Source: Hippasteria phrygiana (lineage: Eukaryota > Echinodermata > Asteroidea > Valvatida > Goniasteridae). From it: DNA of 64,000 bases. Both the position numbers and the translations under genes were made by a program. The stretch lies in the NCBI GenBank assembly GCA_037893225.1, contig JAZGUH010000935.1:186001-250000 (forward strand), read 5' to 3'. Below are positions 5,948 through 63,415 of the stretch, piece by piece (position 1 is the first letter of the stretch; every line of letters begins with the position of its first letter). Below the pieces are notes generated by a model. It worked only from the letters and a program-made list of their open reading frames with translations. It was not told the origin of the DNA and searched no databases.

Positions 5948-6413
5948 TCTACAGTGCGTACTCGATTGGGTATATTTTGATGCATGACTTAGGGAGAATT
6001 TAAATAGGTCTATAGAATTTTACTCTCGATCTCAGACACCCTTATTTGCATTTCAAAGATGTATTGTGATTACATATATATATATATATACAAACGTTAC
6101 TTCATTGTTTTGAACGTTTGAAGGACATTACATATATAAAGCATTTGCCAAGCGTTTTTGGCGAAAAAGAGGAATTCTTGCTGCGCTTTAATTGTACATT
6201 TAGAGGAAAGACGATGGCAGTCGTTGTAAGATAATGTTTCTTCCTTCATGTTTTTATATCTGATCAATAATGTACAGCCCGGTATGGCAGTGCTGTGCCA
6301 AATGCCGAAAAGCCATAGGAACAGTCTATGAAGTATAGAATATCCACTCTGTTGAACAACGGATGATACAACGTCTAAGACTACGCACAGGCCGTACGGG
6401 TATAGGGTTGAAA

Positions 6414-6441: not shown

Positions 6442-6894
6442 GAAGCGAAATGCGGGAGTGGAATTGGCAAGTCAAACGAGCATTTCTTTTAATTTTCCTT
6501 TGGTTTTTTATTTAATAGTAAATTTCGATTATTAATAAATTTCCTTGACCCACCCACCCACATTTTCGAAAAGAAATCGAAATTTTAAAACATTGAAAAT
6601 GTTGAATGGCCCCTTATCTCTTTTGTCTTTTTTTTCTAATAGTCACCAAAGAAAAAGTCCAAGGACAAACAATATTTGGTTTACAATAAAAGTTAAACAT
6701 TTACAATGGTTGCAAACAATTATATTAACGGTAAAATTTAAAAAAATTAACAATAACAGTGACTAACATTACAAAAAGAAAAATACAATACTGAAAATAT
6801 ATTAAAAAAGAATTAGATTATATAAAATTAATATAATTATATAAATATAATATAATTAAGAATACAATAAAATAAAAACTCCTAAAAACCACAA

Positions 6895-20155: not shown

Positions 20156-21253
20156 AAAAAATGCTGAGTTGTTTTTAATGCAGTTCACCCTGCATCTCCG
20201 TGGATTTACACGTCAGTTTCTAATTCAAGGATTGACATGATCTTCAAATGACGGCACTGTTCTTGTGGTTACTCATTGCTCCAGTATTCAACATCATTCT
20301 TTGTATGATCAAGGAAGCTTTGTTTTGGTCTGATTAATGTGAAACGACATAAGTTTATGTGCAACCTTTATCATGCCATGTAAAAGTTAAAGTGAACAGA
20401 TATCAAACTTACCAGCACTGGTGAATGTACTTTGACATTGAGACTTCCAAACACTGCTTCCAACCTCAGTAGAATTCCCTCTAATTATGTGTATGCTCTC
20501 CAAGGTTTAAGCATCTAATAACATGTCAGTGATTGGTGGGAAATGTAACTACACAACAACATCATTATGTGTAAATGTAATTTTGTTTTCTGTGGAGACT
20601 TAAAGTCTTCAGATGTCTTCAGTTGGATAAAAACAAAGAATGACACAAGGAATGGCAGTTGTTTTGTAGCTAGCGTAAAGAATTTCTCTTTTATCTAGGT
20701 TCTTCGTTTGCCACTTGTTATGTATAAATCAAGCCGCCTCCAACATGAAAACAAAATAAAACTGTAATTATGAAATTCAGTAAGACCCTTGTCGAAAATC
20801 ATTTATATCTGTCTATGCTGTATTTGTTCTTAGTTTTTGTTATGTTTGAAAGCTGCATAATGTAACTCAAAGCAACACTGCGTTCAAGTTAAATCCTAGT
20901 TTATAGCTCCATGTCTGAACGTATAGTCATCTCATAAGTAGGGAGTCCACTGTTTTGGATCGTATATCTGAACCCATGCAAAATTAGGGGTCTTCAAAAA
21001 TGCCATAATTAGTATTTTGAGCGGTCCAAAACACTAAAACAGTTTAGTATTATATGGACAATTCACAAACTTGGAGGTGAGAATGTTACTTCATAAGTTG
21101 CCATTGTTATAAGATACTATAATTTTACAAATGATGTAGGAACATTTTGCACAAAATTTAAACACCCCCCCCCCTAAAAAAACGCCTCGAACGCATTCAC
21201 GTGTAGACAGATTAGCCTTTGACAGTTTTATTGATGATAATGTCAGCACATTA

Positions 21254-21287
21254 GTTAGGTCATGGAGCTATAGCTCCATGGTTAGGT
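21254..21287. mobile_element. 20-bp perfect palindrome flanked by GTTAGGT repeats
   Basis: CATGGAGCTATAGCTCCATG (21261-21280) lies between GTTAGGT at 21254-21260 and 21281-21287. It belongs with the palindromes at 23751, 23809, 24026 and 28592. Confidence 0.6.
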
Positions 21288-21558
21288 CATGGAGGAAGGA
21301 ACGCCTTCCTCCATTAGCCTTTTAGAGGTATGGCGGACACAATAGGAGGGCGCTATTTGATTTGGGTAAACATTTTGTGAAAACACAAATTCCAGTGAAA
21401 GTCAGAATCAGATATTGTTTTGAGTTAAAGTGCAATCCATAGATCATGCCTAATCTTCACCTTTGAAATTTCCTGTGGTTTAACAAAAGGTATACCCAAA
21501 TCAAATAGCGCCCTCTCCTATTGTGTCCGCCATACCTCTAAAAGGCTAATGGTTAGGT
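21288..21558. mobile_element. Inverted-repeat element with palindrome at its left end
   Basis: A hairpin ATGGAGGAAGG/CCTTCCTCCAT (21289-21314) is followed by CATTAGCCTTTTAGAGGTAT and the inverted end at about 21497-21551 (arms near 55 bases, including CGGACACAATAGGA/TCCTATTGTGTCCG). A third GTTAGGT stands at 21552-21558. Confidence 0.65.
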
Positions 21559-22086
21559 GCAATTATAGACACCAGCACCCAGAAACTACACCTTTAAAGT
21601 GCCATATAACTCTCGAGCTAATTTTCATACCATTCAATAAACCTTTTCTACATTCTCAATGCATTGTGGGTTTGGAGGCCAAACAAACCATGTAATTTAT
21701 ACACAAACCTGTGGAACTGGGAACCAGTCCAAAGATTAATTGATTTTATGCTAAATATCTGTCATGAGTTGAGCGATACCCTTTTCACATATCTTTGCAT
21801 TTAATACCTCCATGATGAAACATAAGGAAAATAATAACCAGAAAAATCAATTTTAAATCGCAATAAAATAAAGGAAATAATTGGGGAATCCCTCTCAGGG
21901 TACCAGTTACTGATGAATGCAAATTCTGGAATTGGAACAGCTAATAATGTCACATTATTAGCCAATCAGAAGAGGATTTTTGCAAGCACGACAACGAACA
22001 TGTGACCAATGCAACCAATCACGTCCGTTCTAATGTGCTTGCTCTTCTAATGCCAGTTAGGGCTGATGCAGTTCCCATGATCGATG

Positions 22087-22825
22087 CTTTGAGAGGGGCC
22101 GTATCGTAAGTCCGACGCCTCTAGTCCGACGCCTCATAAGTCCGAAAATTCGGAACTATGAGGCGTCGGATTTATGAGGCATCGGACTTATGGACAATTT
22201 TAGTATTCGGCCTCATAGCTCCGACGCCTCATATAAGTCTGAAGCCTCATAAGTCCGACGTCGGAAAAACGAGGCGTCGGACTTATGACTATAAATGAGG
22301 TGTCAGAGCTATGGACCGATACAAAGAAAGGTTCATTTGTCGGACAAGGCAAAAACGAGTTTCACCAAAAATTACATGACGATGTGAGCGAGGGTGTCTA
22401 CTTACACTGTTAAAACGCTGTTTAAAAGGTTGTTTAAACAAGTTAAACAACCGTTCATGTTTAAGCAATGTGTATATCCGCCAGCGCGCAGTTTTTGGCG
22501 CCAGGGTTGATGCCACGGGCGTAAATCACGGGTAGGGGAGAGGGGTATACTCCGGGTCCCCCACCCACTTTTTAACAATAACAGCTGTCGGATAAACGAG
22601 GCGTCGGACTAATGAGGCGTCGGACCTTTAGGCGTCGGACTTAATTATGAACCGAAATAAAAGTAAATTTATTTGTCGGACTTTATGAGGCGTCGGACCT
22701 TGAATTGTCGGACCTATGGGTCGCCGGACCTATGAGGCGTCGGACTTATGGGCCTTTATTTGGTTGGGGTGGGATTTTTGTCGGACTAATGAGGCGTCGG
22801 ACTTATGCGCGGACCCCCTTTGAGA
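22087..22825. mobile_element. hAT-like element built of GTCCGACGCCTCAT repeats, exact 8-bp duplication
   Basis: Element 22095-22817; CTTTGAGA at 22087-22094 and 22818-22825. Ends GGGGCCGTATCGTAAGTCC and (inverse) GGGGTCCGCGCATAAGTCC. At least a dozen copies of GAGGCGTCGGA or its inverse fill the two arms. No transposase frame recognised. Confidence 0.85.
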
Positions 22826-23743
22826 ATGTCGAAAAGGTTTATTGGTCTTGCAATTCCCTTTCCATTGATATCAAATTTGTGACAAGTAGCTCGAAAAAAA
22901 ACACCCAAAACGCCGGACTATCATAAGCCACCCCATTGCTTAGGGTTGTAACTGTGTCATAAAAACAAGATAAACATCACTGATAACAAATAAACGGTAT
23001 AATGCTAGAATTGAAAGGCTAAATGTAAGAAAATTCACAAGTAAGTGTATGTTTATAGTGCATACAGTAATCTAACGCTGGCTCATTATTAGGAATCTTT
23101 ACAGATCGAGGGTAGGTACAGGTACAGGTCCGGCCTGTGTGAAACATGCAGGGCGCCCCCCACGCTTGCCATCCTGGAATTGCTAGATTGAATTCAAGTA
23201 GTTTTTATGAAGCACCGTAATCTGTTGATGAAATAGTGTTCGTTTCTTTTGGATTATGACTACAGTCGTAGACAGTATGTTTTGGATTTAATTCAGTAAA
23301 TATTTTCGAATGAGTAGCTACATGTACTACGTTACATTGCATGCTGTTTAGTCTTTGAAATTACAATTGCCTGTCGTCCCTAAAAAACCAACCAAAACGG
23401 CTAGTGGATGCTTCAACCACGATGTCGCCTTGAGAAACGTCTATTGCATGATACTTGACATCGCTCGCGCTTGGTGCTAGCTGGTAGTAGCTGACATTTT
23501 GCCCTCATTGCTGTGTGCCGGCCGATCAGTACGCGTATACGGTAAGCTTCAAAATTGACCTTTGTATAAACATAGAGAAATAAACAAATATGTAATGTAG
23601 CTCCATCTCTTTCATAACTGACAGCATATTGTTATTTTGTACATGCTGATGCGCATATAATAATAACGTTATGTATCAAGCCATTAGCTTGAAAATTCCA
23701 GCTTATGACATATTCGCCACTAGCTGGAAAGACTTGCTGGTCA
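22826..23743. other. Intergenic; possible non-coding first exon of the MAGUK
   Basis: No repeat edges were seen. Around 23460-23541 a CpG-containing segment ends TATACG/GTAAGC, a plausible donor at 23542; if real this could be a 5' UTR exon joining to 29692. There is no other support. Confidence 0.2.
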
Positions 23744-23808
23744 GTCAGTGCTACTCCTAGAACTATGAGGTTCCTCAGGAACCTCATAGTTCTAGGAGTA
23801 AGTCAGTG
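23744..23808. mobile_element. 49-bp perfect palindrome flanked by AGTCAGTGC
   Basis: Palindrome 23752-23800, arms TACTCCTAGAACTATGAGGT plus TCCT, one central base. AGTCAGTGC precedes (23743-23751) and follows (23801-23809) it exactly. Confidence 0.7.
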
Positions 23809-23843
23809 CATGGAGGTACCTTTTAATACCTCCATGGTCAGTG
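23809..23843. mobile_element. 28-bp palindrome next to the previous one
   Basis: CATGGAGGTA, 8-base centre, TACCTCCATG (23809-23836), flanked by GTCAGTG at 23802-23808 and 23837-23843. Confidence 0.65.
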
Positions 23844-24025
23844 CGACAGTTCCGGATCACTTGATTAAATAAACAGATAAGAATTAATCCAAGTGCAACC
23901 AAATTTGTTTTTTAAGAATTTTTTTCACAAATTTCAATGTCCATCATTTTGCAATAGTCGGAAACATTTTTTTGAAGATCGCTTCATTGTCACCCATAAT
24001 ATAATCATAATGCAGTTCGTCGAAG

Positions 24026-24056
24026 CATGGAGGTAGGCTAGTTTCCTACCTACATG
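24026..24056. mobile_element. 31-bp near-palindrome of the CATGGAGG group
   Basis: CATGGAGGTAGG, 7-base centre, CCTACCTACATG: one mismatch. Flanks GTCGAAG and GTCAAAA share five of seven positions. Confidence 0.55.
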
Positions 24057-24657
24057 GTCAAAATTTGTAATTATCTTGTAACTGTTAGTTGGCCTCTTTG
24101 ACGTGAAATGCCAATCAAAATTCTTGTTTCCCCGGCATAGACCATATTGCAAATACCGCCTGGTCGAGACGTCACAAATTGTCAATGGTCACAAGGGATT
24201 GTGGGAAGGAAATGGGAGCGATTTTGGTGCGTGTATCTTTCCCACGTCCCTAGTGGTAGTGTTAGTAACCATTGTGACGTCTCATCCAAACAGTATTTCA
24301 CTATTTGCGATAAGGTCTATGTAGGCCCTAGTCAACATTCATTGTTTTTTATTGACTTTACTAGTTGAAATTTTCAAGCTATGACTTTACTAAAATAGAG
24401 ATCATAACCGAACATTATGTCATTAAATAAAAGAGACATGAACGGGAAGCGAAAAGAACGGGGACTTAAATTACAATATAAATTTGCATATAAATCAAAC
24501 AATAGACGTAAGTGCACCTTAATTAATAAGTTAAGTTCAGCCATTGAAGAATAAAATCACAAAATAAACATAGAAGTGTGATTGAGACAGTAAAAATGAG
24601 TATGCTTGTGCTAAAAATGAAATGGTATTTGATTAAAACAATATAATTAGGTGCAAC

Positions 24658-25140
24658 TTAAATGTAGTGTACACGACTGATAATCCTCCAAATATTTTTG
24701 TACTGAATTATTACGAAATACCTTACTAGACAGTAAGTTAAGAGCAATCTCAATCATCCTGTGAAATGATGGCACCTGGTGTGCTGTCGTTTTCAAGAAA
24801 AGGTAAAATTTATATCGTTTTTCAACGATTGTTCCGCGTAACAATCGTTGGAAAAAAATATCGGATTTTTAAAATACTTGACCGAATGTAGTTGACCGAG
24901 TGCAAGGTTGCAATTATAGTACAAGTGTGTGTCGCGTAGTGTACTGAAGCGATGGGTTGTAACCAGTCGGCTCGTGACCAATTGAAAATGATCCCGTTTA
25001 CAAAAATGTGGCTTATTTTACAAGAGGGTGCTATATTAAACAAATCCAGTTAATTGCCGCCCGACGGTTGAAAACGAATGCCGATTTTTCTCTCGTTTTT
25101 TTCGCCATCTAAGAACGCAAAACTTTGAAAAATAAAATAC
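24658..25140 (-). mobile_element. TTAA-flanked element with ATGTAGTGTACACGATTGG ends, partial copy
   Basis: It begins TTAAATGTAGTGTACACGAC and shares TTATTACGAAATACCTTACT, CACCTGGTG and AACGCAAAACTTTG with 26980-27434, 62186-62674 and 62930-63415. The far end is rearranged. Confidence 0.65.
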
Positions 25141-25757
25141 TAAATATAGGAAACCAGTCCAGAGGGACCGAATAGAATTTGTTTGCAAATGTACCGTTCA
25201 CACCTCACAAATCGTGTGGTGCGTCTGTTCGTTTTTGTCTGTTTTATCGTTGTGTAATCCATGTTGTTTATTATTTCACTGGTCAATTGGTGACTGTTGA
25301 GCTCAGATTAGTGGTTAAAGTTGTCATTTTCTTTTTTATCCCCCCCCCCCCCCCCGCCAAAAAACAGAAAAGAACAAGAAGAACTGCCGCACGGCCCACC
25401 CAGCAAAGACACTCATCCAGCCCGCCAAAATTGGTAATTTCGAGGACTTATGAAAGTATATTTGTAATGGGCTCCATGCGCGTCGAATGAGGGCGCTGTC
25501 CACATGGGCAGTACGTCGCTGGTATTACGCACCGCGATCCTCGTTCATTTGATACTCGTGTACCAGTGGGATTGCTTTGTCTGTTTGCCGACCCTCGATA
25601 ATGGAGTACCGAAGTGATGACGTCAATCAATGCATTGTTTGGAACCAGAATACATTCTAAACTGCATGTGTTTGGAACCATTGCCGCGGCAACTGACGTC
25701 ATCAGACGTCGGTAATATTGCATTTTCAATAAGAATATCATATCGGGAACCAGACAC

Positions 25758-25993
25758 CGAGGGGGTTTTCGAAACCCTGGCTTCGTCTCCGACTTCGGCT
25801 TTGTCTCCGATTTCTAAATAACTGAGAAGCAAACCAAATGGAAATATTCTAAATTTTGGTGCATGTTCTGCTCCAGGAATATTCATTCGGTTGATTATGA
25901 AAGCAAAAATTAGAATATTTCCATTTGGTTTGCTTTTCAGTTATTCAGAAGTCGGAGACGAAGCCGAAGCCAAGGTTTCGAAAACCCCCTCAG
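25758..25993. mobile_element. Foldback element, 236 bp
   Basis: Arms of about 75-80 bases: GGGGGTTTTCGAAACC, TGGCTTCGTCTCCGACTTCG and CAAACCAAATGGAAATATTC each recur inverted at 25890-25993. The loop is about 60-80 bases. Confidence 0.75.
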
Positions 25994-26055
25994 GTAAGAT
26001 GGCATCGATATTGACCCCCCAACTCGCCTTTTCTTTCCGCTGAGGGGGTAGTTGT

Positions 26056-26746
26056 GCACGGAGCATTGATCTCCATTATTATTGACTGGATAGGACACCT
26101 CAAGCGCGTTTGCACACGTTCGATGGACAATGCTGTGGAACGCCGCGTATCTCACTTTGGTGGTTTACGAGTGAAAACACGCATGCGCTTGTCATACAAC
26201 TACGCAGTTCCCGATATCAGGATTTTAATTAACTTGTTGGATTAAAAAAACAATAAATAAATAAATACAAATAAAAAAGTTTTAACATAACAGGGCAAAT
26301 CAAAACAAAACAACAAAATAAAACAAAACTAATCCGGCGCTAAGATTACACACAATAATATTACGTCAGGCATAACAGCAAAGGCTCAATATCTTTCTAC
26401 AGACTAAAAAACTTACTTGTGGAACGAAATCCCATTTTTCCAAGCATCTGTGGGTCTTAAGTTTTAACAGCCTACAGCTGCCAAACACTTAACAATTGTT
26501 GCATCGGAATCTAGTTTTAATTAATTTTTTTCACATTCTTTTTTGAAAATTGCGAAGAATAAAAAAAAAGTTTGGTGAAGAAATAATTTGCCCCGACTCC
26601 CAATTTCATTTGTTTGCGTTGCGTCAGTGTAGTGTGACGACTTGGCGTTCAAATTTTCAAACCACCTAAATCGAACGCACGCGTTCACGCATGGCGGCGC
26701 AACTTAGCCTATCCAGTCAATAATAATGGAGATCAATGGCATGGAG
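26056..26746. mobile_element. Element with 31-bp perfect inverted ends and near-exact 8-bp duplication
   Basis: Element 26064-26738. Ends CATTGATCTCCATTATTATT and GACTGGATAGG match their inverse without a mismatch over 31 bases. Flanks GCACGGAG and GCATGGAG differ at one base. The 610-bp interior is AT-rich, without a gene. Confidence 0.8.
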
Positions 26747-26979
26747 CCCATAGTGACACTCGTTTGCGCGCTGCTTACACTTTGGAATTGCATGTGTAGT
26801 GGAACCATTTACATAGTAGCGCTTCAGCATGCAGCACAATGACTTTTGTGGTTGGACGTCATCAGCGCCTCAGTGGGGCTTATACGCCGGTGCGGCTAAT
26901 ACGCCAACTTTAAATCTTAATTTGCAGATTTTTACGTGCTGCGGCTTATACTCCGCGCGGCCTATATTCCGAAAATTAC

Positions 26980-27434
26980 GGTACATGATTGGTCAATGTT
27001 GCAATTTTCAGAAATGGGCGGATTTGGGGTTAGTATTTTATAGAAATTATCGTTTCAAAGTTTTGCGTTCTTGGATGGCGAAAAAAATTAGAGAAAAACG
27101 GCGCTCGTTTTCAACCGTCGGGCGGATGATAGCCTTTAGTCAAGGCGTGCGTGGCTGCCTGGACGCGTGACACTTCCCGAATGCCAGCATGTCCGGGGCG
27201 CGCCACTCGTCCGGGTAGCCACGCGTGCCTTGACTAAAGGCAACAGGGCAGTTTTCCAATGATTTCCAGCTGGAAATCGTTGGAAAACGATATATATTTT
27301 AACTTTTCTGAACGACAGCGCACCTGGTGCCATCATTTCACAGGATGATTGAGACTACTAGTATTAACTTAGTCTAGTAAGGTATTTCGTAATAATTCAT
27401 TAAAATAAAATTGAAGGATTACCAATCGTGTAAA
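26980..27434 (+). mobile_element. TTAA-type element with internal palindrome, copy 2
   Basis: ACATGATTGGT at the left and ACCAATCGTGTAAACTACC at the right. The middle has a strong inverted pair (TTTAGTCAAGGCGTGCGTGG against CCACGCGTGCCTTGACTAAA). Confidence 0.7.
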
Positions 27435-27631
27435 CTACCTCTTAATAATAGCCTTTACACCTTGGCTAATTTTAATCCTGATCAAATTTGTGTGCATTTG
27501 CACATGTTTGCATACATGTGGACATCCAGGCTTGATCCTGTAGATTTTTGTACTTCTGTATTTGAGCTGGGTTTCAATACACAACAATTGTATTGATATA
27601 AACGTGGTTGTATACAGGTTCTGTATATAGG

Positions 27632-27803
27632 TACTTCCGAGGACAAGAGGAGAAAGAAAATATAAAGAAACCTTTCAGTCCTCGCAAGTCAAGTCTTTTG
27701 TTGAAATCGGTCCTCGCAAGTAAAAATACATGCTTAATTAGTCTAGGGGTTTGGGTTATATTAAAGGAACAATAGGAAACACAAAGCATTGTCCTCGGAA
27801 GTA
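27632..27803. mobile_element. MITE with TACTTCCGAGGACAA ends, copy 1
   Basis: Perfect 15-bp inverted ends. The interior matches 52697-52863 (CCTTTCAGTCCTCG, TGTTGAAATCGGTCCTCG, ATTAAAGGAACAATAGGAAA). Confidence 0.75.
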
Positions 27804-27869
27804 TTGGGAAAGTACGACTGTGTGCACACACGTGTGGATGCATGTTTGCATACTCGCCTGGTTCTAAAA

Positions 27870-28115
27870 GACACGGGTGAGATTTGTCAGGATTTTTGTC
27901 GGAATTTTTACTGATTTCAGAATTCTTAAAGAATCTCTTTTGAAATCTGGAATTCCTGATGTGTTACCCTAAAGGTGTTTTTACCTGTAAAAGTGGATAT
28001 AGACCAATAGAAACTGGTATTTTAAGGGGTGAACCATAGACCCTACATTGTTCTGGGGTCCTCGGCAACCCCCAAACACTGCAGATTTCGTGGAATTTTC
28101 ATTTTCGGCAGTTTC
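27870..28115. repeat. Interspersed repeat (GGGTGAGATTTGTC), copy 2
   Basis: Second copy of the repeat at 19920-20155. Confidence 0.65.
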
Positions 28116-28584
28116 ACCACTAATAAGATTTGCAGAAATGTACATGTATGTATTTTTTTCATTGTATACTGCACAGCACTACACCGGTAGCATTTTATTT
28201 GCCTGAATATGTGTGCTTGCATGATGTACATATTCAATCAAACATTTAAAACGAGTGTGTACAAGAAATGTACCCTCAAGCAGAGATTATGCTGAGATTT
28301 GACATTTTGCTTTTGTCAACATATGCAAAAGTGATTTGCCTGGTGAAACGGTCTATTACGCATTTACCCTGGTAAATTACTATAGTGTAGCATATGGCAC
28401 AAGGCACACTGGAGGTTGAGAAATATCTCACTTTATGTGCTCCAGTGAACTTCAAATTGAGAAGTCAGAGCTTCCCTGAAAATTGAATTGTAAATTATTC
28501 AGAACCTAAAGGGCTTGAGCTGATGATGGCGTGCATGCCTACAATTATAATGTATTTTTGGATTGAGACCTGCATGGCATGTCT
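28116..28584. other. Intergenic, nothing recognised
   Basis: Unique-looking AT-rich sequence; no ORF with similarity. Confidence 0.4.
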
Positions 28585-28626
28585 ATTCAATCATGGAGGA
28601 AGAAAATTCTTCCTCCATGATTCAAT
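28585..28626. mobile_element. 28-bp perfect palindrome flanked by ATTCAAT
   Basis: CATGGAGGAAGAA, AA, TTCTTCCTCCATG at 28592-28619, with ATTCAAT at 28585-28591 and 28620-28626. Confidence 0.7.
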
Positions 28627-30954: not shown

Positions 30955-31385
30955 AGACTGGCTGGAGTGGGATTCGAACCGGAGACATCCATAATGCCGT
31001 ACGGCGCTCTACCAACTGAGCCATGTTGGCAGTCTCCCAAATTGTCTGTATCTTTGTTCGGGGGGGGGGCGCAGGGCGCAGGGCGCAGGGGGCGCAGTGC
31101 TAGTCATGTCATAAACCCAGAATGCTGTATAGCCAGGGATCACACCCAATCACGTCCAATACAACCTGGGAAGCGACATTGTGGGGATCACTCAATGCAG
31201 ATACGACTTTTTAATGTATAATTCGTCAAACCACAAGGGAAACTGACTGGGTAAATTTGAACAAAGAACACCGGCAGGAGCGGGATTAGAACCTGCGACC
31301 TCCGGAATACTGTACCGGCGCTCTACCAACTGAGCTATCTTGCCCTATGTTGGCGGTCTCCCAATTGTCAGTTTTCTTTGTTCGA
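30955..31385 (-). repeat. tRNA-derived SINE (family 1), two heads
   Basis: Minus-strand heads lie at about 30961-31032 and 31273-31344 (A box TAGCTCAGTTGG in the second), separated by the body with CACAATGTCGCTTCCCAGG. A G/C run GGGCGCAGGGCGCA is at 31060-31097. Confidence 0.75.
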
Positions 31386-42719: not shown

Positions 42720-43075
42720 TGAACAAAGAAAACTGGCAGGAGCGGGATTCGAACCTGCGACTTCCGGAATACCGTACCGGTGCTCTACCAACTGAGCTAT
42801 CTTGCCCTATGTTGGAGGTCTCCCAACTTTTCAGTATCTTTGTTCGGGTGGGCGATTCGGTTTTCTTTGTTCACTTTAAAAATGTATTCAACACCGAGTC
42901 AGTTTCCCTTGTGGATGGTTTGACGAATTATAAGTTAAAAAGTCGTATCCTCATTGAGTGATCCACACAATGTCGCTTCCCAGGTTGTATCGTAAAATTG
43001 GGAGTGATCCCGTGATACGGCATTCTGGGTTTATGACTTTTGACTAGCGCCCACCTGAACAAAGATACTGACAAC
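42720..43075. repeat. tRNA-derived SINE (family 1), head and body in opposite orientations
   Basis: The head (42735-42806) is on the minus strand, while the following body (TTTGTTCACTTT, AAGTTAAAAAGTCGTATCC, CACAATGTCGCTTCCCAGG) is on the plus strand: an inverted junction of two copies. Confidence 0.7.
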
Positions 43076-44334: not shown

Positions 44335-44922
44335 TACAGTGGAACACTGCTATACCGAACACCATCCTTGGCTCCCAAATTTTGTGTACAAAACTTACCG
44401 AACATTGTTGTTGAAAAAAAAAAAACAGATTGAAAAAGTGTACCGGGTATTTGGGCTGTTTGTAATTCCAGTACGGCCGCAGCTTTATGTTGAAGAGTGA
44501 CAGGCGGCTATTATTTCCCCAAGGAATAGAAGGAAAAAGCCAAAAGCCAACTGTTGCTTTAGAATTCGGTAAGCTTAGAAAGTTTGAACATGTAATTACA
44601 TGATTTAATGGCCGGCATATATTCAATTACAATCAAAAGCGGGCGCACTTTAAATACAATGCAAGAGGGCGCTATTTAAAAGAACGGATGCCATGTTGGC
44701 GGACTGGCGGCTGAAAATCGCTATACCGAACGATCGCTATACCGAACGATCGCTATACCGAACGATCGCTATACCGAACGATCGCTATACCGAACGATCG
44801 CTATACCGAACGATCGCTATACCGAACGATCGCTATACCGAACGATCGCTATACCGAACGATCGCTATACCGAACAAAATCTGTGGATCTCGCGATGTTC
44901 GTTATAGCAGCGTTCCACTGTA
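44335..44922. mobile_element. TA-flanked (Tc1/pogo-like) element with an internal array of its own end motif
   Basis: TA / CAGTGGAACACTGCTATACC at the left and GTTATAGCAGCGTTCCACTG / TA at the right. The end motif GCTATACCGAAC is amplified inside (see next entry). No transposase recognised. Confidence 0.8.
44719..44875. repeat. 16-bp tandem repeat, 10 copies
   Basis: Unit CGCTATACCGAACGAT, ten nearly exact copies. The unit contains GCTATACCGAAC, present in the left end of the surrounding element. Confidence 0.95.
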
Positions 44923-51764: not shown

Positions 51765-52030
51765 TCTTTTCAAAGTGAACAAAGAAACTGGCATGAGCGG
51801 GATTCGAACCTGCGACCTTCGGGTTACCGTACCGGCACTCTACCAACTGAGCTATCTTGCCCTATGTTGGCGGTCTCCCAAATTGTCAGTATCTTTGTTC
51901 GATGGGTGCTAGTCAGAAGTCATAAACCCAGAATGCCGTATAGCCAGGGATCACACCCAATTTTTTCGATACAACCTGGGAAGTGATATTGTGGGGATCA
52001 CTTAATGGGGATACGACTTTTTAACTTATC
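51765..52030 (-). repeat. tRNA-derived SINE (family 1)
   Basis: Head at 51790-51861 (minus), A box TAGCTCAGTTGG and B box GGTTCGAATCCC, with the body toward 52030 (CCCAGAATGCCGTATAGCC). Confidence 0.75.
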
Positions 52031-62185: not shown

Positions 62186-62674
62186 TTAAATGTAGTGTAC
62201 ATGATTGGTCATTGTAGCAATTTTCAGAAATGGGCGGATTTGGGGGTTAGTATTTTATAGGAATTATCGTTCCACTGACCTGTTCAAAGTTTTGCGCTGT
62301 TGGATGGCGTAAAAAAAACGAGAGAAAAACGGCGCCCGTTTTCAACCGTCGGGCGGATGATAGCCTTCAGTCAAGGCGCACGTGGCTACCTGGACACGTG
62401 ACGCGCCCCGAATGCCAGCGTGGGGGCGCGCCACTCGTCCGGGTAGCCACGTGCGCCTTGACTAAAGGCTACAGGGCAGTTTTCCAATGATTTCCAGATG
62501 GAAATCGTAGGAAAACGATATAAATTTCCACTTTTCTTGACAACGACAGCACACCTGGTGCCATCATTTCACAGGATGATTGAGACTACTATTAACTTAC
62601 AGTCTAGTAAGGTATTTCGTAATAATTCAGTAAAAAAAAATTGAAGGATTACCAATCGTGTACACTACATTTAA
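62186..62674 (+). mobile_element. TTAA-flanked element with ATGTAGTGTACATGATTGG ends, copy 3
   Basis: TTAA/ATGTAGTGTACATGATTGGT ... ACCAATCGTGTACACTACAT/TTAA. It contains a strong inner inverted pair (AGTCAAGGCGCACGTGGCTA and inverse). Confidence 0.85.
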
Positions 62675-62929
62675 GCCTGCAGTGCTGGTGGTTGCCTCCA
62701 AGTTGCCGGAAAAATTCGCCTCGTGTGACTAGGCCTTAACAACAAAATACTGTTGCCAAGAATGCAAATCAAAAGTCTCAGATTCGAAATTGTTGGTTTT
62801 CTTTGTTGTTTGTCATATTATAACAAAGTTTGACTGGTCCCATCGATTTTGGTATGAGAGTTGACTATAAAAGCCCCCTGTAAATAGACAAATAAGGTGA
62901 AGCCAAAAAAAAAGAAAAGTTAAACGTAG

Positions 62930-63415
62930 TGTACACGATTGGTAATCCTCCAATTTATTTTTTACTGAATTATTACGAAATACCTTAGTAGACTGTAAGT
63001 TAATAGTAGTCTTGAACATCCTGTGAAATTATGGCACCAGGTGTACTGTCGTTGTCAAGAAAAGTGGAAATTTATATCGTTTTCCAACGTTTTCCGGCTG
63101 GCAATCGTTGGGAAAACTGCTCTGTAGCATTTAGTCGAGGCACGCGTTGCTACCCGGACGAGTGGCGTGCCCCGGACATGATGGCATATCCGGGGCGCGT
63201 TATGTGCCCAGATAACCACGCGCGCCTTGACTAAAGGCTATCAACCGCCTTACGGTTGAAAACGAGCGCTGTTTTTCTCTAGGTTTTGTTTCGCCATCCA
63301 ACAACGCAAAACTTTGAACAGGTCAGTGGAACAATTTTTCCTATAAAACACTGACCCCCAAATCCGCCCATTTCTGAAAATTGCAACAATGACCAATCAT
63401 GTACACTACCTTTAA
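62930..63415 (-). mobile_element. TTAA-flanked element, copy 4 (inverted)
   Basis: TTAA/ACGTAGTGTACACGATTGGT ... ACCAATCATGTACACTACCT/TTAA (allowing one base). Opposite orientation to copy 3, 255 bases away, so the pair can fold into a long hairpin. Confidence 0.85.

Follow-up and report, generated by a model that had tools for sequence, protein, structure and literature searches.

We analyzed a stretch of 64,000 nucleotides from the sea star Hippasteria phrygiana (GenBank assembly GCA_037893225.1, contig JAZGUH010000935.1, positions 186,001 to 250,000 of the forward strand), hereafter called the window, with respect to short palindromes that begin with CATGGAG and lie between 7-bp direct repeats, together with further places in the genome where such palindromes occur. 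The analysis indicates that these palindromes are probably footprints left by the excision of P-superfamily-type cut-and-paste transposons. The observations on which this is based are the duplications, empty paralogues of some of the sites, units composed of prefixes of an end sequence, a limit of arm length in one end family, one-armed products, and the presence of P transposases, and it is the resemblance to the P element of the fly, along with the occurrence of the superfamily in this genome, that points to parents of the P superfamily.

In the proposed mechanism, an element would insert with duplication of 7 bp of its target. At excision, one strand would be cut at the border of the element and the other about 18–21 nt inside its end, and each flank would keep a 3' tail that copies the terminal inverted repeat (TIR). 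End joining, often at a microhomology of 1–4 nt, would then fill in and ligate both tails. Because the two tails would be copies of one end sequence facing in opposite directions, the scar left between the duplications would be palindromic, and its centre would vary with the joining point.

Abundance, duplications, and target of the palindromes

Three palindromes in the window, at 21261–21280, 23809–23836, and 28592–28619, have a CATGGAG start and exact 7-bp flanks. When the window was scanned mechanically for units of 14–80 bp that have exact 7-bp inverted ends and lie between exact 7-bp repeats, those three and no further ones were returned, and the same scan on 40 dinucleotide shuffles gave a mean of 0.03 and a maximum of 1. 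The frequency of a 7/7 match between random 7-mer pairs located 14–51 bp apart in the window was 0.0005. Genome-wide, the end pair CATGGAG-(0–30)-CTCCATG, which corresponds to units of 14–44 bp, was found at 6834 places compared with 78 for the reversed pattern used as the control; these are places and not independent events, as some scars lie inside copied repeats.

Flanking sequences were compared for 43 of 50 listed places from the 6834 and for three sites of the window, resulting in 45 rows after merging two loci that have the same flanks (L001 and L002; L numbers denote loci read). The flanking 7-mers were identical in 32 of the 45 rows and matched at 6/7 in six, at 5/7 in three, and at 1–3/7 in four, so that 38 rows matched at 6 or 7 positions, whereas cross-pairs of left and right flanks matched in only 8 of 1980. 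Thus, identical flanks were much more frequent in this sample than expected by chance. When repeat copies were discounted by hand, about 40 events remained of the 45 rows, and the flanks were exact in 28. The duplication length of 7 bp is indicated by 17 hits at that length that are CATGGAG units in the window and 20 ten-kb loci, 14 of the 17 being at places picked for CATGGAG ends. These 7-bp target duplications bear out the suggestion of an earlier note on this DNA that an event of the transposition type had taken place, and they give the units the repeat on both sides that characterizes an excision footprint of the P superfamily.

The composition of the duplication in the 32 exact rows, copies included, was G19 T28 T20 N A18 A22 C13, and the pattern continued one base off on either side (T21 T18 before and A15 A21 after). 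The target is therefore a 15-bp palindrome centred on the 7-bp duplication, with a consensus near GTTNAAC. The combination of 7 bp and a symmetric consensus corresponds to the trait of P-superfamily parents, namely, a 7- or 8-bp duplication in a palindromic target of 14–15 bp.

Empty sites, which the earlier note had expected of true insertions, exist as paralogues inside this genome. Beyond the window, 280,527 letters of genomic sequence were read, 200 kb of which surround chosen scars, and 45 queries, each consisting of the two flanks joined with a single copy of the duplication, were compared with the window and the loci read. Uninserted paralogues were found for four events. L020 is an empty relative of the scar in L023/L039, with GTTTGTC present once, and L017, L019, and L027 are empty relatives of the second scar of L029. 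Two cases are weaker, with scar flanks that match at just 2/7 and 3/7, respectively: the L003 scar, for which the window near 22.0 kb is an empty relative, and the L033 scar, whose empty relatives are L017, L035, and a site near 46.1 kb in the window. L029 also has a one-armed scar, at which about eight adjacent flanking bases are gone.

Structure of the units and limit of arm length

Most units consist of a prefix of an end sequence followed by the reverse complement of another prefix of that end. For 46 units compared with 12 end sequences, the exact two-prefix fit was achieved in 34, compared with 4% for shuffled centres, and the fit with up to 3 extra nt in 39, compared with 15%. Because most of the 12 ends were taken from the longest scars in this very genome, the fit is partly circular. 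An overlap of 1–4 nt at the join was present in 20 of the 46 units, and the same end on both arms fitted 45, where the fitting favours one end for both arms when scores tie. Accordingly, two inverted-end prefixes with a variable join, as characterize a footprint, are present, with the same reservation as to the choice of the ends. The 45 rows represent 37 distinct units, which is not the family of near-identical units at unrelated sites that would characterize a miniature inverted-repeat transposable element (MITE) or a foldback element. Six units recur, three of them with common flanks and hence as copied DNA.

The length of the arms is limited. The end pair was found at 6352 places (by subtraction) at 14–34 bp and at 482, compared with 18 for the control, at 35–44 bp, the 482 including compound and chance hits. 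Among the 50 listed places at 35–44 bp, there were five perfect palindromes of 36, 36, 38, 38, and 42 bp, corresponding to arms of 18–21 nt, and the longest exact arm was 21 nt. The 21-nt end CATGGAGGAAGGAACACWAAC occurred at 260 places (control, 0), and among 100 of these that were listed, three close opposite pairs formed palindromes of 42–50 bp. In 10 of the 260 places that were read, nothing was in common after nucleotide 21, except in L083, L084, and L085, three copies of a single scar composed of 21 + 11 nt between GTCTGAC, with one flank base changed. Among the others, L080 is one-armed (GATAGAC, 21 nt, GATAGAC), as is L077; L079 and L081 keep the duplication and have short right arms, that is, unequal arms; and in L076, L078, and L082, the right side is lost or altered.

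Another sequence that resembled a long end, CATGGAGRWAKRAAACACAC (257 places), was rejected, as 13 of 20 places read belong to a single dispersed repeat in which it is contained. The other seven are three copies of one palindrome with a duplication, two of another repeat, and two single places. L056 and 12 others of L057 to L072 contain a dispersed repeat with CATGGAGGAATAAAACACACTGG or a close variant, mostly with GTGCAAG before it, which merely mimics a scar end.

With observed arms of no more than 18–21 nt, varied joins, and one-armed and flank-deleting versions, the units therefore look like excision scars and not like a mobile class. The same features do not support the proposal of a class of tiny insertions in the earlier note, nor its suggestion of extreme internal deletions of a foldback element.

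P transposases and search for parent elements

The genome contains 37 matches to PF21788, the GTP-binding insertion of P transposases. P-type Pfam domains, five and four in number, occur in two open frames, of 780 aa in L045 and 690 aa in L046, and the P transposase was the sole solved relative found for them. The frame of L046 lies inside a P element of 7641 bp (joined positions 1463–9103 of L050, L046, and L051) with the ends CAAAGATAGTAGAGCGCC (18/18), matching ends of about 40 bp, and an exact 7-bp target site duplication (TSD), GTTACAC, which fits the target of the scars. Because its ends are CAAAGATAGTAGAGCGCC, this element is not the parent of the CATGGAG scars. More long copies of the L046 stretch were found at 96–99% identity. 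One copy, which lies in L049 and neighbouring loci, shares its borders and surroundings with the 7641-bp element, and the pair could be two alleles or else a duplicated segment. No clear ends were found at the P loci L045, L047/L048, L054, and L055. L047 and L048, which contain a P transposase fragment, are two contigs that are 99.8% identical over 6 kb, and in places both alleles may be represented in the assembly.

Inside the P element, at 2556–2562 of L050 and 2644–2650 of L052, there is a single minus-strand end CATGGAGGAATAAAACACACGCGAGC with CGTCTAG adjoining, for which no partner end was seen. L050 and L052 also contain, again inside the P element, relatives of the MITE found at 21315–21548 in the window.

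In the window itself, Pfam analysis of ten frames indicated no transposase and gave one match, which was below the cut-off; one frame used as the query of a protein search had three matches, all short and unnamed; and no match to the window was found in a phage collection.

Individual loci in the window

The coordinates of the five loci in the earlier note are correct, and the palindromes with flanking repeats at them, described here on the forward strand, are real, including the exact flanks GTTAGGT, GTCAGTG, and ATTCAAT. Their description as perfect or nearly perfect holds in part: self-complementarity at loci 1 to 5 is 20/20, 48/51, 20/28, 24/31, and 26/28, so that locus 3, taken in full, cannot be called a near-perfect palindrome. 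The ends CATGGAG/CTCCATG, which had been assigned to four loci, are exact in three.

Footprint 1 (21261–21280) is a perfect palindrome of 20 bp, CATGGAGCTA/TAGCTCCATG, which recurs at an unrelated site in L001 and is situated between copies 1 and 2 of GTTAGGT (21254–21260 and 21281–21287). It is followed by a sixth unit, footprint 1b, absent from the earlier list, which starts at 21288 and is interrupted by a later 234-bp MITE (21315–21548; TIR TAGCCTTTTAGAGG, AT on both sides). The initial 27 bp of footprint 1b are at 21288–21314, its final base is at 21551, past the MITE, and its right flank is copy 3 of GTTAGGT (21552–21558). Removal of the MITE and one AT copy restores a 28-bp palindrome, CATGGAGGAAGGAACGCCTTCCTCCATG, followed by GTTAGGT, so that 21254–21558 contains two palindromes with GTTAGGT three times around them.

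Footprint 3 (23809–23836; 28 bp) has a left arm CATGGAGGTA of 10 nt and a right arm up to CCTTTTAATACCTCCATG of 18 nt, with two centre bases left over in the prefix fit, and GTCAGTG is its right duplication (23837–23843). Its left neighbour, unit 2, is a perfect 24-1-24 palindrome of 49 bp (23752–23800) with the ends TACTCC/GGAGTA between two copies of the 9-bp repeat AGTCAGTGC (23743–23751 and 23801–23809), and the GTCAGTG within the second copy (23802–23808) doubles as the left duplication of footprint 3. Unit 2 is thus of another kind than the CATGGAG scars, adjoining footprint 3. The window has adjacent units with a common duplication at about 21.3 kb and 23.8 kb, one member of the latter pair being unit 2, and such units are also present in L029; it therefore seems that elements inserted into the same 7 bp more than once, leaving tandem scars.

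Footprint 4 (24026–24056; 31 bp) is degraded, with the ends CATGGAG/CTACATG, and its flanks, GTCGAAG/GTCAAAA, match at 5/7, as the earlier note had stated of one pair. Footprint 5 (28592–28619; 28 bp), which lies between two copies of ATTCAAT (28585–28591 and 28620–28626), has arms that are both prefixes of the CATGGAGGAAGAAAACAC end, and the unit recurs at an unrelated site in L026. On the minus strand, the single arms CATGGAGGTATTAAA (21800–21814) and CATGGAGCTATA (20902–20913), preceded on that strand by GTTTCAT and GTTCAGA, respectively, are possible one-armed scars.

The window also contains, at 27132–27241 and 62361–62471, two copies of an approximately 110-bp hairpin repeat (GCCTTTAGTCAAGGCG...), similar sequences being present in L009 and L022; a long inverted repeat (62480–63115) with 161-nt arms of 91% identity; a perfect 16-bp tandem array of 9.9 copies (44717–44875; ATCGCTATACCGAACG); and three minus-strand predictions of tRNA-Thr (31272–31344, 42734–42806, and 51789–51861), which are genes or tRNA-derived repeats.

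Discussion

The comparisons made here draw on portions of the cited papers. In the fly, one of the cuts made by the P transposase falls at the 3' end of the element, and the other lies 17 nt inward on the opposite strand (PMC7776569). Excision leaves flanks with 17-nt 3' tails, CATGATGAAATAACATA, and the repair products of these tails are given in Table 1 of PMC2895639. The scars described here are similar to the fly P{wa} junctions in the order of duplication, end prefix, opposite-end prefix, and duplication, and to fly P products in joins at short microhomology, small inserts, and one-sided losses, and the ends begin with CATG in both (CATGATG in fly P and CATGGAG here), whereas fly P has 8-bp duplications and 17-nt tails compared with 7 bp and arms of up to 21 nt here, and represents sequenced experimental events compared with an accumulated genomic record (PMC2895639). 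Galileo, a member of the P superfamily in Drosophila, is similar in that its target is a 15-bp palindrome and its duplications, with the consensus GTATTAC, are mostly 7 bp long, but differs in its long foldback-like TIRs and many remaining copies, and the portion of its description consulted mentions no CATGGAG ends (PMC4168063). Pdre2/THAP9 of zebrafish has 13-bp TIRs starting with CAT (CATACCTGTCAAC) and a THAP9-type transposase, but 8-bp duplications and another end sequence (PMC10983969). The local 7641-bp P element shares the 7-bp TSD and a P-type transposase frame with the inferred parents, but its ends differ and its long copies remain.

Several observations weigh against P-type excision as the source. 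Flanks are inexact in 13 of the 45 rows, four of these at 1–3/7; 4–9 nt are unexplained in 7 of the 46 scars; and the fit is affected by the partial circularity mentioned above. At 35–44 bp, 12 of the 50 listed places match only over the required 7 nt, and the count there is inflated by compound and chance hits. Three of the six recurring units are found at unrelated sites with different duplications. The arm limit of about 18–21 nt is not the 17-nt stagger of fly P. A full-length CATGGAG-ended element with 7-bp duplications was not found in the window and the loci searched, an opposite CATGGAGGAAGGAACACWAAC pair 0.1–12 kb apart was not present among the 100 listed of 260 places, and the P elements and loci read have other ends or no clear ends, none linked to CATGGAG.

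The lack of a visible CATGGAG-ended parent in the window, the loci read, and the 100 listed long ends, and arms of up to 21 nt instead of 17, would also be explained if the footprints were left by parents of another or undescribed DDE superfamily that makes 7-bp duplications and long tails. We regard this as unlikely, although clearly the strongest of the alternatives, since it is for P that long tails and this scar layout are described in the portions of the literature consulted, and the genome contains both P transposases and a P element whose 7-bp TSD fits. Dada, which has a TSD of 6–7 bp, is defined as being without terminal inverted repeats and located in small RNA genes, in contrast to the inverted ends of the scars (PMC3706591).

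It is very improbable that the palindromes themselves are mobile, as micro-MITEs mobilized in trans by a transposase. The 7-bp duplications, the empty paralogues, and the thousands of places are in accordance with such an origin, and the three units that are identical at unrelated sites with different duplications slightly lower our confidence in scars and slightly raise that in micro-MITEs. However, units of 14–20 bp are too short for internal transposase sites, the 37 distinct units in 45 rows and the copied DNA around three of six repeated units do not suggest a mobile family, and one-armed units and a flank deletion argue in the same direction. Recurrent joins are also expected from microhomology, and one fly junction was recovered 14 times (PMC2895639).

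Equally improbable is an origin as extreme internal deletions from interrupted gap repair after excision, in which only the element ends are left: aborted repair is named as giving rise to the defective copies of P and Galileo (PMC4168063) and would likewise yield end-to-end joins with duplications, but repair synthesis predicts all arm lengths, whereas the 10 long arms read share nothing past 21 nt and the counts per bp of length drop from about 302 at 14–34 bp to about 48 at 35–44 bp. A chance origin is rejected by the window shuffles, the reversed-control count, and the flank cross-pairs.

Excision of P-type elements thus being our preferred explanation, a more specific history can be put forward tentatively, in which several related CATGGAG-ended families, now rare or gone, might have inserted and excised thousands of times with a longer stagger (about 18–21 nt) than that of fly P and repeatedly re-entered 7-bp sites, leaving an archive throughout the genome.

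Excision scars in the portions of the literature consulted are single experimental fly events, and a genome-wide record of palindromic P-type scars was not announced in the titles and abstract openings searched in one library; excision of other elements has been studied genome-wide, as in a survey of DNA-transposon activity in rice (PMC4423477). For annotation, such palindromes are probably to be treated as scars and not as tiny elements. The several thousand scar places would represent a natural record of the repair of double-strand breaks with long 3' tails, and such a genome would allow the tail length of each family, and how often a transposon leaves as opposed to stays, to be estimated.

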